DNA of 22,593 nt from a virus: the IMG/VR virus record IMGVR_UViG_3300042450_000019, positions 1 through 22,593 of that record; one strand, written 5' to 3'. Below are positions 981 through 12,574 of this stretch, in pieces. Below the pieces are notes generated by a model, which worked only from the letters and a program-made list of their open reading frames with translations, was not told the DNA's origin and searched no databases. The translations under genes were made by a program, and so were the position numbers. How positions within the stretch are numbered: the stretch's first letter is position 1; each line of letters starts with the position of its first letter.

Positions 981-1553
981 ATGAAGTTATCTTTTCTTTC
1001 TGTATCGGAATCAAAATCAAAAGATGGGCATATCAAATGGTTGTGTAAATGTTTGTGTGGCGATGTTTCTGAATACATTGCAACAAGGGTTCGCAACAAC
1101 AGGGTTACCCAGTGCCATCAATGCGCCATAAACCAAGCGGCAGGAAAAAATAAAACTCATGGAATGAGAAATTCCAAAGAGTACAGGGCTTGGAGTGCAA
1201 TGAAATCTCGTTGTAGAGAGGGTTCTAAGGATTTTCATAGATATGGCGGCAAAGGTATTTTTGTTTACAGCAAATGGATAGATAACTTTGAGTTGTTTTT
1301 TCAGCATATTGGCAAGTGTCCATCCTCAAGTCATTCAATAGATCGAATTGATAACTCAAAAGGATATGAGCCAAACAATGTTCGATGGGCAACAAAAAGC
1401 GATCAGCAAAGAAACAAAAATAATTCTGTTTATGTTTCTGATGGAAAAAATGTTTTGCACTTAAATGAAGTTGCAAAATCTCTTGAAATTAGTAGAGGTT
1501 CTGCGGCTTTGAGATTAAAAAGGGGTAAATTAAATGGCTATTCAAGAGTTTGA
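981..1553 (+). CDS. free-standing HNH homing-type endonuclease
   Basis: A 190-residue putative DNA endonuclease, probably selfish. The N-terminal part has Cys22, Cys24, Cys26 and Cys45-x2-Cys48, likely a zinc-binding knuckle. The core matches phage HNH enzymes: YRAWSAMKSRC (68-78), YGGKGI (88-93), the metal-site region SIDRIDN (119-125), NVRWAT (133-138) and QQRNK (142-146). Residues about 158-182 (LNEVAKSLEISRGSAAL and on) resemble a helix-turn-helix tail of the kind that sets target specificity in homing enzymes. AAGGGG five bases before the ATG supports the start. The gene looks more AT-rich than its neighbours. It separates the annealing-protein gene from the exonuclease, and its last 20 bases contain the new exonuclease start in another frame. 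Confidence 0.88.
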   Translation: MKLSFLSVSESKSKDGHIKWLCKCLCGDVSEYIATRVRNNRVTQCHQCAINQAAGKNKTHGMRNSKEYRAWSAMKSRCREGSKDFHRYGGKGIFVYSKWIDNFELFFQHIGKCPSSSHSIDRIDNSKGYEPNNVRWATKSDQQRNKNNSVYVSDGKNVLHLNEVAKSLEISRGSAALRLKRGKLNGYSRV

Positions 1554-6433: not shown

Positions 6434-8590
6434 TTATTGGGCTGGTTCAAGGTTTTTTATGTACGCATCTAAATCAATAACTGGATTTGCTCTTTGTTGT
6501 TGAGTAAGAGTTTGTGGTCTTTGGATGGTCATCATTTGATTAAGTTCAGTCAAATACTCAGAGTCAATGATTCCAGATTTATTAAACATATCTGCTATCT
6601 TTGCAGCCGCCGCACCAGCATATTTAGGATTTGCTTGTGCTTTTGCCAACATAGCAAGTGCATCCATTGAGTTCTTGTTTGTCAATGCCTTGCCCATCAT
6701 TTTTGGAGTTAAATACAAGACTCCAACACTAGAAAGTATGGATGGCAAATCCATTTTGTTTTGAACTTCATCTGGTAAATTTAAGTACGCTAAAGTTGAT
6801 GCAAGACCAGTAGCCCCAGTAACAGCCGTACCAATAAATTTAGTTCTTAAAGCAGTAGAACCTGTTTCTTCTTCTAAACCATACTTAGCGGCATTTGTTA
6901 TATCTAACAATTGTTTTTTTACTTTTGGCTCTCTAAACAAATAGTCAAAACCTTCTTTAAAAGTTTTGTCTTCCAAGTTTTGAGATAACTTCAGCACACC
7001 ATTTGGGTCGCCAAATATCTTGTTTAAATATCCATACCGCAATTCATTTATCAAGCCAGCACTTTGTTCTTTTGGAAGATACTTCTGTACTTCAGCAATA
7101 GCCTTAAATGTATCTCTCATGCGCTCTGGTCTATCAATATTGAACAATAGTTCACCAACAGCAGATGGCTCTGCTTTTAAAGCTGCTTGCATTGTTCCGT
7201 TATACAAACCACCCATTGCATTTTTATAACTACTTTGAGCATTAAAATACTCACGCAATAACTCATTATTTGCCGTATTTGCTTTGGTTTTTGGCAAATT
7301 TAATTGATCTAATGAATTGATGTTATGCGCTTGATATTGACCATTTCTCAAACCAGCGGGTTGATCTATTCCTCCAACTAATCCTAATTTTCTAGCTATA
7401 GCCTTTTGTTCCTCATTGCCAAAAGTAATAACCATTGTGTTGTCCATTAAATTTGCAACACCTTGTGCTTGATTAAAATACTCTTTTTGTAAAACAGTTG
7501 ATGGCACACCTTCTTTGGTCGCCTCTCTACCGCTTGCCAATAAATCACTTCTTAAAGCATGAGCAGTTCCAAAAGTAACTTCATCGTTTTGTTTGAGGAT
7601 GTCTTCCAAAACTTTCTTGCGCTCAATTCCACTGCCAATAAACCCACGCTCTGCTAATTTAGCGTAATCTTTTTGCGCTTGTTGTTTCAAAGGAATCAAA
7701 TTAACACGCAAACCTTGGTCAGCATCAATCTTTTCATATACAGGAGCAAACTTTGCCTTCATCAATTTATCAGCTTCTCCAATGGCATTTTGGAAGCGAT
7801 CTCCAATAGCCATTTGCGTTGGGTCACCCTGCTTTAATGCAGTTTGAAATGCCTCTGATGTATCAAGTGTAGTTCTTACATCGTTTGCACCAGCATTTAA
7901 TGCTGCTTGAACACCTTTTTGTTGTTGTTCAAAGTAGTTAGATGCAGGAGAATATTTTAATGTTCCTTCAAGTGTCTGAGTACCAAAATCACCAGTAAGC
8001 TGACCTCTTGTAAGAGTTGCATTTCTTGATGACAACCACTCTTGTGCCGCCCGTCTTGCTTCTTGTTCAGGTGTTGCAAAGAAACTTGCTGACTTTGTAA
8101 TGCCAGTTTTATCTAGTGCATCTTTTGTTACTTTTAATGTTTTACCAAAAGCAGAAAACACTAAATTACCGCCAACATCAAATGCTGCATTTTGTAGATT
8201 GTTTTCTAATAACTTTTTTCCTGTTTCAGTAGAAAAAATCTTTTCGTCTTGCAAAAAGGCTTGTTCAGCTATTGTTCCAGCAGTTGTTCCTATTGTGGAA
8301 GCGGTTAATGATGGAACATATGGTCTAGCAAAAGCTGGTGCTTTTTCTCCAAGCCTTAACATACTTTGTGCAAATCGTGTTTCTGGTGCAAGGGGAGGAA
8401 CAAGACCCAAAAGTAATCCTCCAGCTTCTGGAACACTTGTTGGAAAAGATGGTGTTACAGCAATTTGAGGAACTAATGCTTGTTCAAGTTGCTGTCTTGT
8501 TTGTTGAGTTTGAGCAGCGCTGTCTCCACCTTGACTGATTGTTTTTCCACCAGCAAGTTCAAGATTTTTGATGTATTCATCTAAGTTCAT
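6434..8590 (-). CDS. large internal-virion-type protein with repeated terminal peptide
   Basis: A 718-residue protein without recognised enzyme motifs. Position after the tail genes and before lysis genes, length and helical Gln/Ala/Lys-rich composition fit an internal (ejected) virion protein of podoviruses, though this is by context only. A hydrophobic Gly/Ala stretch at about 95-150 (TIGTTAGTIAEQ and after) and another near 595-640 may insert in membranes. The protein starts MNLDEYIKNLE and ends IDLDAYIKNLEPAQ, so the same nine-residue motif caps both ends. It is AT-richer than the capsid genes. Start at 8590 is three bases from the preceding stop. Confidence 0.7.
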   Translation of the reverse strand: MNLDEYIKNLELAGGKTISQGGDSAAQTQQTRQQLEQALVPQIAVTPSFPTSVPEAGGLLLGLVPPLAPETRFAQSMLRLGEKAPAFARPYVPSLTASTIGTTAGTIAEQAFLQDEKIFSTETGKKLLENNLQNAAFDVGGNLVFSAFGKTLKVTKDALDKTGITKSASFFATPEQEARRAAQEWLSSRNATLTRGQLTGDFGTQTLEGTLKYSPASNYFEQQQKGVQAALNAGANDVRTTLDTSEAFQTALKQGDPTQMAIGDRFQNAIGEADKLMKAKFAPVYEKIDADQGLRVNLIPLKQQAQKDYAKLAERGFIGSGIERKKVLEDILKQNDEVTFGTAHALRSDLLASGREATKEGVPSTVLQKEYFNQAQGVANLMDNTMVITFGNEEQKAIARKLGLVGGIDQPAGLRNGQYQAHNINSLDQLNLPKTKANTANNELLREYFNAQSSYKNAMGGLYNGTMQAALKAEPSAVGELLFNIDRPERMRDTFKAIAEVQKYLPKEQSAGLINELRYGYLNKIFGDPNGVLKLSQNLEDKTFKEGFDYLFREPKVKKQLLDITNAAKYGLEEETGSTALRTKFIGTAVTGATGLASTLAYLNLPDEVQNKMDLPSILSSVGVLYLTPKMMGKALTNKNSMDALAMLAKAQANPKYAGAAAAKIADMFNKSGIIDSEYLTELNQMMTIQRPQTLTQQQRANPVIDLDAYIKNLEPAQ

Positions 8591-8592
8591 TA

Positions 8593-10173
8593 TTACAACC
8601 CCAATTCATCACGGATTTGTCTTGCTTTTGTTGCTTCTTCTAAAGTGGCTGTGTTGTTGGCAACCTTTTTCAAAATACCTCGGTATTCAGACATTTGTTT
8701 CTTTACAAAACTTGAGGATTTTGTTTTTTCTTCTTCAAAATTAACATCATTTAAACTTCCACCACCTTGGGTTACTTGATTTATTTTCTTATTTAAGTGT
8801 CTATCTTGAGCAGCTAAACGCTCAATTTCATCTGCAACAAATAGCAAGGTGTTAACAGACAATCCTCTTGTACCAATAGTTTTCTTCAAGAATAAAACAT
8901 CTTTATCAGACAATGCGCCTTTAAGCTGTCCTGCCGAACCAATAGTCATTTGACCTAAAATTTGGTCAATAATCTCAGATTCAGTACCACCCTTAGTTGG
9001 TATTCCAAATGCTGATGCAACTTTTGATGCGGTTAATTTTGCATCTGCCGCAAATCCAGTAAAGGCTTTAGGCGAAAGGTCTCTAAGACTTTGAGCAAGT
9101 GAAATTCTGTCAGATGCAGAAAAAGCACTTTCTTCAACAGATTTTGCTAAATCTAATTTATTTTGATTTATACCAACAGCTTGTTTAAACCCTGCTGTTT
9201 GAGTAATATTAGAAGTTGTTTGGTCAATATTTCCTTCAAATGGAACACGAATTTGTTTAGTTGGGTCTTTAGGATCTTTTCTCTTTACAAATTGAAGATC
9301 TTCATTTCTATCGTAATAAACAGCTTCTCCCGTTGCTCTTGTAACACCAATTTTTGGTACATCTGGTTTTTGTTCTACTTGTAGATTTCCAAGTTCTGCC
9401 TCTAAGCCAGCACGAACTGTAGGAGGTAAAGCAACTCCCGAATCAGGACTTAATTGTGTTTGTATTTCACGAACTCGTTTAGCAACTTGAAGTTTATCAG
9501 CTACTTTTTCTGGTTTTTCAGGTCGCTCAAGTTGTGCTTTTTCGTCTAACAAATCTTGATAAGTTGGGTCTTCAGGTTTTAGTGTTCTGAGTGTCTTGTT
9601 GATTTCACCAATACGATTGGCGACTTGGATTGGAACTGCCAATTTTGTAGCTGTATCTCCACCTAAAACTCTAAGTTGATTTTCAAGTAACTTGATTGCT
9701 CTATCTCTTTCAGGTGATACAGGCAATGCTTTATATTGGTCAATAGCATCCTGAATCTGAGGAATCATTTGTGCTTTTTGAATGTCAGCAGGAACGGCTA
9801 ACTGACGTTCTTTATTGGCTTGAGCAACTTGAACAGCAGCTTGACGACCAGCATTGGCAATGCCATATGCAAGTTCTTGATCTCCAGCATCAGATGCCAT
9901 TTTTGCTACTCGTGCAAAAGACGCAGGATCAGATTGATCTAACTGGCTTAACAACTGCTGTCTACGAGCAATTAACTGCAACTGTGGATCTTGACCACCC
10001 AAAGCACCGCCAATACCTTGACCCAACTGATAACCAGCAGTCCTAGCACCTAAAGCCGCTTGTTGAAACGGATTTAACTGTACTTCTTGAGCCGCACGAT
10101 TTTGAAACTGCGCCAACTGATTTTGTTGGTACTGTTGAGGAGATGTGAACAATCCTAAGATGTCTGATGCCAT
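8593..10173 (-). CDS. internal-virion-type structural protein
   Basis: A 526-residue, mostly helical protein with no signal or membrane segment. The N-terminus MASDILGLFTSPQQYQ is followed by a Gln-rich region with a Gly-rich patch (GQGIGGALGGQ near 51-61). The middle has charged helical repeats with RPEKPEKVADKL near 215. The C-terminal third carries a compact part around LSDKDVLFLKKTIGTRGLS. I recognise the general type from aquatic podoviruses as a virion gene of unknown role, and place it with the internal or ejection proteins by order. It is followed immediately by the 718-residue gene. Confidence 0.65.
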   Translation of the reverse strand: MASDILGLFTSPQQYQQNQLAQFQNRAAQEVQLNPFQQAALGARTAGYQLGQGIGGALGGQDPQLQLIARRQQLLSQLDQSDPASFARVAKMASDAGDQELAYGIANAGRQAAVQVAQANKERQLAVPADIQKAQMIPQIQDAIDQYKALPVSPERDRAIKLLENQLRVLGGDTATKLAVPIQVANRIGEINKTLRTLKPEDPTYQDLLDEKAQLERPEKPEKVADKLQVAKRVREIQTQLSPDSGVALPPTVRAGLEAELGNLQVEQKPDVPKIGVTRATGEAVYYDRNEDLQFVKRKDPKDPTKQIRVPFEGNIDQTTSNITQTAGFKQAVGINQNKLDLAKSVEESAFSASDRISLAQSLRDLSPKAFTGFAADAKLTASKVASAFGIPTKGGTESEIIDQILGQMTIGSAGQLKGALSDKDVLFLKKTIGTRGLSVNTLLFVADEIERLAAQDRHLNKKINQVTQGGGSLNDVNFEEEKTKSSSFVKKQMSEYRGILKKVANNTATLEEATKARQIRDELGL

Positions 10174-10185
10174 TGTCTTTTCTCC

Positions 10186-12288
10186 TTATGTCGCAAAAGC
10201 TGATTGTTGTCTATTCTTAAGCAATATTTCAATTAATTGCTGTTCTGTAGTTTTTTCTGGTACACCAAACGCTTTGTTCACTGCACTAGAAAGAACAGGA
10301 CTACTTGCCGCACCAGACAAAAGATTTCCACCTAAAGAATAGGCATTTGCTGGAGCCATTGTTCCTGCCGCATTGATGATGCCTTGACCAGTTAATCTTC
10401 CAACATCAGCCGTAGCTGTACTAACCTTTTGACCAATAGCAGTGCTTAAATCTAAAGGCTGTTGAGCCAATCTCTCAAGTCCTGATGAGGTATCTATAGC
10501 AGTTGTAAATGGCGAATAAGCCGCCGTTTGACCAGTGTAGTATCTGCCTTGCAAGTTAGCACCAGTGTCAAACAAGCCAGAACCAAACTGAATGCGGTTT
10601 CTAGCCTCTTGATCTGCCTGTGCTGCAAGAACCAAATCGCTTTGAGCCAAAGAGTTGTAGTAAGCTGCCATCTCAGGGTTTGTATTCATCAAGTTACCAC
10701 CTTGAGACGTAGCAACTCCACCACGCCCTGTTTGAAACTGTCTGTTTCGCAACTCAGCAAGCTGATTTGCTCGACTAGGCGCAAGCAAAGCTGTTTGTTT
10801 AGTAATGTAGTCTTGTGCGGCTTCTTCTGGTGTTTTAGTAAAATATCCTTTACCCAAAGTAAATAGACTTTGTGCCGCACTCGTTAAAGGCTGATAAGCA
10901 GTTCTAGCGGCCTCTACATCAGTCAGCCCCTGACCAGAAAGGGTTTTTAACCTATCTTGATAACCTGTGATCTCAGCACTAGGTGTATATCCCGCAGTAA
11001 CAATATTACCTGCTGCATCAGTTGTGAAATTGGATGTACCAAAGCGAGTAGTTACGCCAACAGGTCTAAACCTAGCGGCATCAGCAGCAATTTGTGCCGC
11101 ACGAATCTGTGCATCTGCTTGTGTTTGTGCCGCTTCCTTGGCTTGTTCAGACGTTAAATAAGAGCCACCAGCACCTATTAAACCTTGGATAACAGATGGA
11201 GCAAAAGTCTTTAAAGTGTCTACTGAAATCCCAGTTGCTTTTGCAATGGAATCCAACATACTTGGAGTAATTGAACTAGCCGCCGAAGAAACAGCAGAAG
11301 GAATAACAGCAGGAGTAACAGTAGGAGACACAACAGGAGGAGTAGGTACACCAGCCATAGGACTGCCGCTACCAGTAGGAGGAGTAGGCACACTAGGAGT
11401 AGGTATTGCCGCTGTAAGACCAGTAACTCCTAAAGCAGCAGGAGTTAATCCAGTAGCAGCAGCAGTTGCATTTACTCCAGCAGCGCCAGTTCCAAACCCA
11501 GCCAAACCACCTGATGAACCACCACCAGCCAATAATCCTGCTTCTGTTGCTCCACCAGCAGTTAATGCAGCTAATGGGATTCCAGTGGCTGCTGCTGTAG
11601 CCGCCGCACCCGCCGCACCAGTACCCATACCAGCTAATGTTCCACCAGCCGCAGGAGCCGCCGCACCAGCACCCAATAGACCACTACCAGCTAAATAATT
11701 AGCACCCAATGCGGTCAAAATCATTGGGGCAAACTCAGTACCCAATTCCCTAATCATGCTACCAAAGCTGCCGTTATCCTGATTATTTAAATCAGAAATT
11801 CCCCAATCAACAACATTGCCACTTGCATCTAGTCGCGGAACAGATACGATGTTTGGCTGGCTTGGGTCAGGCGTTAAATATTGACCAGGCTCTAACGTCA
11901 AATAATTGAAATTACCTTTTGGGTCATATTTTGTAACAAGCGGAATATCCGCAAATGTTTGGTCACTTGGTAATGTGTAGCCTGTAATTTGTTGTACACC
12001 CATGCCATACTGATTTACATCTGCAAAAGCTCTATCAAATGGCGCTGGTGCGGCTGGCATACCAGCCCTTGGATCATAAGAACCATATGGCGCCTGATAT
12101 GTTGATGGTGCAGGTATTCTTCCATCAGTATAAAACTCACGCAAACCAGTCTGAGGATTAACAGTACCAGCACCACCCATAGCTTTCAACAATCCAGCTT
12201 CTTGAGGATTGATGTGGGCGAGCATGGTGTCGCCATATCTGCCCTTTGACGCAAGATTGTTATATTGATTGTTAAAAAGACTTGGCAT
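10186..12288 (-). CDS. large virion protein with Ala/Gly/Pro-rich hinge
   Basis: A 700-residue protein; the ATG at 12288 (MPSLFNNQYN) follows AAAGGA, whereas the in-frame ATG at 12312 lies inside the previous gene. Residues 1-190 are mixed with many Tyr, Pro and Gly. Residues about 190-340 are low-complexity Ala/Gly/Thr/Pro and hydrophobic, with an imperfect internal duplication (about 218-246 and 261-290). A helical segment EQAKEAAQTQADAQIRAAQIAADAARFRP follows, then RPVGVTTRFGTSNF. The helical Ala-rich part plus the hydrophobic hinge suggests an ejected internal core protein, comparable in position to T7 gp14-gp16. Exact role unknown. Confidence 0.68.
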   Translation of the reverse strand: MPSLFNNQYNNLASKGRYGDTMLAHINPQEAGLLKAMGGAGTVNPQTGLREFYTDGRIPAPSTYQAPYGSYDPRAGMPAAPAPFDRAFADVNQYGMGVQQITGYTLPSDQTFADIPLVTKYDPKGNFNYLTLEPGQYLTPDPSQPNIVSVPRLDASGNVVDWGISDLNNQDNGSFGSMIRELGTEFAPMILTALGANYLAGSGLLGAGAAAPAAGGTLAGMGTGAAGAAATAAATGIPLAALTAGGATEAGLLAGGGSSGGLAGFGTGAAGVNATAAATGLTPAALGVTGLTAAIPTPSVPTPPTGSGSPMAGVPTPPVVSPTVTPAVIPSAVSSAASSITPSMLDSIAKATGISVDTLKTFAPSVIQGLIGAGGSYLTSEQAKEAAQTQADAQIRAAQIAADAARFRPVGVTTRFGTSNFTTDAAGNIVTAGYTPSAEITGYQDRLKTLSGQGLTDVEAARTAYQPLTSAAQSLFTLGKGYFTKTPEEAAQDYITKQTALLAPSRANQLAELRNRQFQTGRGGVATSQGGNLMNTNPEMAAYYNSLAQSDLVLAAQADQEARNRIQFGSGLFDTGANLQGRYYTGQTAAYSPFTTAIDTSSGLERLAQQPLDLSTAIGQKVSTATADVGRLTGQGIINAAGTMAPANAYSLGGNLLSGAASSPVLSSAVNKAFGVPEKTTEQQLIEILLKNRQQSAFAT

Positions 12289-12298
12289 TTTTTTTCCT

Positions 12299-12574
12299 TT
12301 AAACAGTTCCATTTGCTATGACATTACCAATCACAGTCAAATTACCAGAGGCATCAATCTTTGCTACAGGTGTCGATATATTGTAGATATACAACACATT
12401 TGATGCTTCAACAAAAGAGAAATTTGAAAATGTTCCATCTGCCTTTGAAGCAATAGCTGTTTGAATATTTGTAAATTCTGTGTCAATCTCAGTTCCCTTG
12501 ACAACCTTTGAAGCATTGCCAGAAGCAAGGGCATCTTTTGATGCAAAGTTGGTGGTTTTCGTGTAATTAGCCAT
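12299..12574 (-). CDS. small conserved virion-associated protein
   Basis: A 91-residue protein beginning MANYTKTTNFASKDAL and containing VVKGTEIDTEFTNIQTAIASKADG (24-47), a pattern I recall at the start of tail-fibre or structural proteins in many podoviruses. The C-terminal half is beta-like (VLYIYNISTPVAKIDASGNLTVIG), similar to the stem segments that trimerise in fibres. It may be a small fibre-like or spike-base component. It sits between the nozzle-like gene and the large hinge protein, with a ribosome site AAGGAAT before its ATG. Confidence 0.65.
   Translation of the reverse strand: MANYTKTTNFASKDALASGNASKVVKGTEIDTEFTNIQTAIASKADGTFSNFSFVEASNVLYIYNISTPVAKIDASGNLTVIGNVIANGTV

Follow-up and report, generated by a model that had tools for sequence, protein, structure and literature searches.

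The question raised by this locus is why a large protein, probably packed in a phage head, should carry the same nine-residue peptide at both of its ends. The window, i.e. the whole stretch of DNA that was analysed, is a 22,593-base virus record of an uncultured phage group, and all the statements made here rest on uncultured contigs. On its minus strand, genes for a scaffold-like protein, the major capsid, the adaptor, a tail protein, F2, F1 and F0 follow one another (Table 1); after F0 come small membrane and lysis-like genes, the labels of which were assigned by eye. The major capsid matches PF19821 and PHROG 267, and the adaptor gene matches PF24175 (SU10 adaptor). Among named phages, Anabaena phage A-4L and its relatives have the closest capsids (about 29-34% identity), while the portal taken from the L024 record has its closest relatives in Roseobacter, Pelagibacter, Aeromonas and Vibrio phages (21-27%). 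Pfam and PHROGs gave no family for F0, F1 or F2. Three consecutive genes for large putative internal proteins sit downstream of the tail genes, with F0 as the last, and the order F3, F4, F2, F1, F0 is found in the loci extending that far; from this gene order, F2, F1 and F0 are probably ejection (internal virion) proteins. F2 is about as long as F0 or longer in some loci, including the window.

Table 1. Positions of the features discussed, in the numbering of the window
Feature	Positions	Strand	Basis
F0, large putative ejection (internal virion) protein, 718 aa	6434..8590	-	ORF
F1, putative ejection protein upstream of F0, 526 aa, proposed partner	8593..10173	-	ORF
F1 C-terminal domain, last 215 residues, proposed receptor for both peptides	8596..9240	-	co-switching
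F2, third consecutive putative ejection protein, T7 gp14 position	10186..12312	-	gene order
N-terminal docking peptide MNLDEYIKNLE, putative	8558..8590	-	repeat, conservation, class agreement with C-peptide
C-terminal docking peptide IDLDAYIKNLEPAQ, putative	6437..6478	-	repeat, conservation, low-identity island
Q/T-rich linker QTLTQQQRANPV ahead of the C-terminal peptide	6479..6514	-	sequence

The presence of the same peptide at both ends of F0, claimed in the preliminary description, proved to be real. The last ATG ahead of the motif was used as the start of F0, so that the N-terminus reads MNLDEYIKNLE, with two residues ahead of LDEYIKNLE. At the DNA level, the nine-residue repeat is identical at 23 of 27 bases, and at 24 of 30 when the preceding codon is included. 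Comparison of the first 20 with the last 20 residues of F0 gave a score of 40, which none of 20,000 shuffles reached (best shuffle 34). When any pair of 9-mers across the whole of F0 was allowed, the best shuffle scored 37 and none of 500 attained the observed score. The LD.YI peptide is absent from every other ORF in the window.

Three scans of IMG/VR yielded 69 distinct loci encoding F0 homologues, down to about 35% identity; L002, L008, L009, L012, L045, L046, L064, L070-L074, L076-L078, L082-L085 and L089 were not counted again, their contigs being already included. A pattern scan gave no F0 relative among genome contigs, bacterial or prophage, and 50,697 named phage records searched with the proteins of the window, L055 and L059 gave none either. 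Together with the window there are 70 F0 frames, 59 of them with both ends in hand, and in 57 of these 59 (window included) the two ends match. Eleven frames run off a contig end and were excluded, each carrying the motif at whichever end is present. L087 and L088 lack the C-peptide and were likewise excluded, leaving 57. The L087 frame stops early, and L088:7827-9407, a distant relative with a frame of 526 residues, has the motif at neither end, possibly because the frame is shifted, or because the twin-peptide system is missing from this lineage. The N-peptide of L043 was missed by the pattern and added by hand. The upstream F1 is present in 57/57 full-length loci.

The shared peptide varies by lineage, the N/C pairs being LDEYIKNLE/LDAYIKNLE, IDWSVAP/IDWSVEP, INWDEAP/INWDTAP, FDWENYQPP/FDWDSYQPP, YDWSSVPV/YDWTSVPV, INWDEYVTNLE/INWDAYQPTE, IDWDKSV/INWDEAV and VDLEQYLKNLE/INLEDYLKNLE. 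The core of the motif is [I/V/F/Y/M]-[D/N]-[W/L]-[D/S/E]-x, followed by Y or by a residue and P. It forms a short conserved stretch inside a flexible terminal segment, as evident from flanks with pLDDT under 50, and homologues have Q/P/S/T-rich linkers at the position of QTLTQQQRANPV in the window; in the L075 models, the pLDDT at this end is likewise under 50. In a motif-free test, in which the best 7-mer shared between the 20 N-terminal and the 30 C-terminal residues was compared with shuffles of the same protein (p<=0.03), matched ends were found in 57/57 F0 frames with both peptides, 53 of them at 0/200 shuffles, against 1/57 F1 proteins and 1/71 virion proteins from eight other podophages. 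The similarity of N- and C-peptides of the same protein was 30.3 as compared to 15.4 in foreign pairings (31 representatives; 0/20,000 permutations). The peptide frame of this permutation test was picked after the sequences had been seen, whereas the 7-mer test is independent of that choice; at 50% clustering, which leaves only five representatives, 349 of 20,000 permutations reach the own N-C value. Position 3 (W or L) is the same at both ends in 16/16 representatives at 70% clustering, against a fraction of 0.60 in foreign pairs. Peptide classes, defined from position 3 and positions 6-7, agree between the N- and C-terminus in 32/32 representatives. The preliminary description had proposed a docking peptide and had made the proposal depend on conservation of the terminal peptides in homologues. 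It is supported, since homologues retain matching peptides at the two ends and the two switch class together.

It had also been suggested to look for the motif in other virion proteins. Outside F0, the scan of 460 distinct other ORFs (some remaining F0 copies among them) had as its terminal hits only scattered look-alikes, e.g. LPWQQE at the start of the terminase, and a general tag of virion proteins was rejected on this ground. A literature search over titles and abstract openings gave no description of ejection proteins with matched docking peptides at their ends. The sole match among the 71 control proteins is ORF26 of Pf-WMP3 (L106:21214-25701, minus strand), a large internal protein with NKPNDNK near its start and NKPNDTN near its end; ORF27L of A-4L, which matches the C-terminal part of this protein, is without matched ends. 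The largest ejection protein of SU10, gp24 (L107:25674-30095), starts with MANIKPWEEASKAP, a look-alike of the W type present at the N-terminus only.

A trace of gene fusion or duplication, offered as the other origin of the repeat, is not borne out by the codons. At the residues common to both peptides, 82 of 157 codons are identical in the 32 representatives, as compared to 83.9 expected from the codon usage of each gene, and the pair has been remade lineage by lineage. Since codon identity is at the level of chance, it is selection on the protein that keeps the match, and the DNA repeat is a by-product of protein constraint. Recent intragenic duplication or gene conversion was rejected, identity at synonymous positions not being in excess.

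The two peptides change in concert, and their classes fit the tree of the F1 C-terminal domain better than that of the F0 body. By parsimony, 8 class changes are needed on the F0 body tree, so independent switches are few, as compared to 4 on that of the F1 domain. Over the rows in which each is present, F2, F3, F5 and the F1 N-terminus give trees requiring 7, 9, 6 and 7 changes, respectively. The F0 body rejects a single clade for the four class-A rows (p-AU 0.003), while the F1 domain tree unites them with a support of 100, and the F1 domain does not reject L075 and L086 as a single clade (p-AU 0.126). The domains of class A and of the rest are homologous, with 24-31% identity across long matches. 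The F1 domain tree also places L032 and L066 with L035, unlike their position on the F0 body tree, and all three have Y at position 6 in both peptides; this placement is unsure because of long branches. L066 is a partial exception in another respect, as its C-peptide resembles class A (0.63), yet its F1 domain is just 15-17% identical.

Correlation analysis of the 32 representatives pointed to the same domain. Given F0 body identity, the similarity of C-peptides is associated with that of the F1 domain (partial r +0.46) and of the last 35 residues of F1 (+0.50), less with the F1 N-terminus (+0.25) and F2 (+0.28), and hardly, if at all, with F3 (+0.14) and F5 (+0.09), the Mantel-type p values being liberal with related sequences. 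The downstream genes F9 (-0.01) and F6 (-0.17) show no such association, though they lie closest to the C-peptide. Peptide specificity is accordingly seen to co-vary with the putative partner domain, both in the count of changes and in the partial correlations. Of the partners named earlier (portal, core or neighbour), the neighbour is the one that gained support, in the form of the F1 C-terminal domain, from this co-switching and from the AlphaFold2 contrast described below; the adaptor-like F5 showed no association. Candidate pocket residues of the window F1 (K491, V490, I464, A509 and A514) were taken from a ranking by mutual information across 32 related sequences and are to be regarded as leads only.

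Pairs of close relatives illustrate the exchange. The window and L003 share 79% of the F0 body and 96-98% of the downstream F9 and F6, whereas both peptides are different and the F1 C-terminal domains, as aligned here, have an identity of 16%. L075 and L086 are 86% identical in the F0 body, 82% in the F1 N-terminal part and 87% in F3, as against 28% in the F1 domain, and their peptides differ at both ends. Along the DNA, two separate islands of low identity (about 0.3-0.5, up to 0.6 in single comparison windows) were seen between close relatives. The first runs from the C-terminal part of F1 through the first 150-240 bases of F0, N-peptide included, and the second takes in the last 90-100 bases of F0, C-peptide included; the identity in the approximately 2 kb between them is mostly 0.7-0.9. 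In the pairs window/L003, L014/L016 and L001/L015, identity is 0.40-0.50 in the C-peptide island and 0.8-1.0 past it; for L075/L086, a short stretch downstream was compared, and it is likewise dissimilar. The F1 domain with the N-peptide, and the separate C-peptide island, have in this way been exchanged together between close relatives. The F1 domain and the N-peptide adjoin in the DNA, and hence the N-peptide half of the association could be due to linkage alone. For the C-peptide, linkage alone was rejected, as 2 kb separate it from the F1 domain and the downstream genes next to it show no association.

Structural models were built for L075. F0 was modelled with AlphaFold2 as a single chain fused to the F1 domain (215 aa; 47 aligned rows) and also alone (32 rows). 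In the fused chain, the mean pLDDT of the ten residues making up the N-peptide block was 73, between stretches under 50 on both sides, whereas the first two blocks of F0 alone had values of 37 and 45; mean pLDDT of the two models was moderate (66.8 for the fused chain, and 60.7). The rise in confidence of the N-peptide fits its docking on the F1 domain, in a model in which the tether placed the peptide only a few residues away. The C-peptide stayed under a pLDDT of 50 with and without the F1 domain, which is expected if the lone F1 domain is already occupied, or if the C-peptide does not bind.

The best profile match of F0 among solved structures had an E of 0.41, and that of F1 was only the THO subunit THP2 (E 0.0012). 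Foldseek on PDB gave no match under E 0.001, all VIA-align rows were under Z 8, and Foldseek on BFVD returned proteins of distant uncultured phages, the best rows having a TM of 0.26-0.38 and an rmsd near 28-31; some BFVD proteins of weakly similar fold carry the name LT_GEWL. The VIA-align rows for residues 28-169 of the F1 domain in the L075 model include the focal adhesion kinase FAT domain with LD peptides, at Z 4.5-4.6. The FAT domain is a helical bundle which takes short LD-type peptides such as the LD motif of paxillin, and the window peptide begins with LD, so that an analogy in working is possible; the Z score is at the level common among helical bundles, and no homology is claimed.

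The reading preferred here, and held to be probable, is bivalent docking of the twin end motifs of F0 on the C-terminal domain of its neighbour F1. Docking of the peptides on some other partner (portal, scaffolding protein or capsid), with the F1 domain following the peptides for a different reason, e.g. by binding that same partner, is unlikely. In the nine loci with portals, none of which is of class A, partial r with the portal is 0.34 for the C-peptide and 0.57 for the N-peptide, i.e. no worse than with the F1 domain on the same loci (0.26 and 0.21; F1 tail 0.48 and 0.46). The crAss001 cargo protein is also reported to be bound to the portal, and the ejection proteins of P22 to need the scaffolding protein for entry into the procapsid. 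Against a portal partner, the portal of L086 is 69-79% identical to those of L024, L069, L029 and L022, while its F1 domain is 25-30% identical to theirs and the peptides are different. The adaptor-like F5 and the tail gene F3 are moreover little associated, and the AlphaFold2 contrast concerns the F1 domain only. It is improbable that the ends bind each other or an adjacent F0 subunit as a self-assembly motif (a head-to-tail ring or a swap) to which F1 is irrelevant. Self-interaction could require the class match seen in 32/32 representatives, but it should track the F0 body tree, on which twice the changes of the F1 domain tree are needed, and the monomer model of F0 gives the peptides no AlphaFold2 confidence.

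The swap islands are the most diverged stretches, in which homologous recombination is unlikely, and exchange limited to the conserved F0 body could by chance leave the diverged ends with their original lineage, no functional match being involved. This is very improbable, as it leaves unexplained both the likeness of the ends within each protein (57/57) with codons at chance level, and the near-identical downstream genes of the window and L003 next to an untouched C-peptide island. Least probable of all, and scarcely to be expected, is a function of the peptides as processing signals, e.g. protease sites by which both ends are trimmed off; ejection proteins can be trimmed, the P22 gp7 reportedly losing 20 N-terminal residues to a host protease, but a protease would leave the association with the F1 domain unexplained.

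Under bivalent docking on F1, F0 would belong to a set of three proteins, encoded one after the other, that are probably packed in the head and then ejected, and a flexible linker at each of its ends would bear the same short linear docking motif. Both motifs would bind the same type of pocket on the F1 C-terminal domain, and one F0 chain could hold two F1 subunits. Different F1 domains would demand different motifs, so that both motifs change together and with the F1 domain; a plug would be used twice in one type of socket, and socket and plugs would change as a set. We infer the physical binding of F0 to F1, its site, its bivalency and its part in building the ejection complex or keeping it together from this concerted evolution. 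An extension of the proposal, which is tentative and rather doubtful, is that one F0 grips two subunits of an F1 ring (1:2) through two identical end plugs, and that plugs and socket, like a lock and key, are exchanged between phages as a unit and decide which ejection proteins can work together.

To our knowledge, mutual recognition of ejection proteins inside the phage head is known from a few structures only. In the present uncultured group, a plug and its socket are indicated by nothing more than the way the sequences have evolved, and several versions are seen, each specific to a lineage. The interface could be tested with short synthetic peptides and one domain, and would explain in molecular terms why ejection complexes have 1:2 ratios. 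A route to docking partners may also lie in finding short protein ends which track the tree of another gene and not their own.

Among known systems, the cargo-loading peptides of encapsulins are short terminal peptides that recruit a protein into a shell; they differ in that one peptide at one end is bound by the shell protein, without neighbour-specific switching. In T7, an eight-fold ring of gp15 is described as carrying a four-fold ring of gp16, at a 2:1 ratio (PMC11784390, PMC8954989), and eight-fold and four-fold rings are reported for the internal core proteins of T7 and PhiM1 (PMC11784390, PMC11440229). A four-copy protein holding eight partners would, as proposed here, gain from two plugs per chain. 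T7 likewise has three consecutive internal-protein genes after the tail genes, gp14-gp15-gp16, with the largest last (PMC11784390, PMC8954989); F2-F1-F0 occupy this position, and a bivalent F0 would fit the 2:1 ratio. Unlike F0, gp14, gp15 and gp16 gave no match between their ends when put through the motif-free 7-mer test, and they have no sequence family in common with F0. Pfam matched a lytic transglycosylase domain in none of the 32 F0 proteins, and F0 is therefore not filed as a member of the gp16 family. The ejectosome of the Pectobacterium phage PhiM1 (EP3/OEP/TEP) resembles the proposed complex in that ejection proteins of unlike symmetry are joined in one core by bridging elements, but the bridge is described as EP3 helices between portal crown domains, and not as matched end peptides of the largest protein (PMC11440229). 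The cargo protein C1 of crAss001 is similarly attached to defined partners in the virion by limited segments of its chain; the partners are the portal and the tail barrel, and the account of C1 given in PMC10172136 does not, as far as it goes, describe twin terminal peptides.

Some minor observations concern the neighbouring genes. The length of F2 ranges from about 275 to 1305 residues among the relatives, with a common core of ~300 residues, and some versions have long N-terminal extensions. Near the portal gene of the L024 genome there are three related genes in a row, with 441, 446 and 447 residues (L091:1503-5513). In the window, the tail-side protein at 20252-22336 matches DUF7483 over two stretches. 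A 190-residue ORF among the early genes (981-1553, plus strand) has paired cysteines and a WSAMKSRC stretch, and presumably resembles a homing-type endonuclease.
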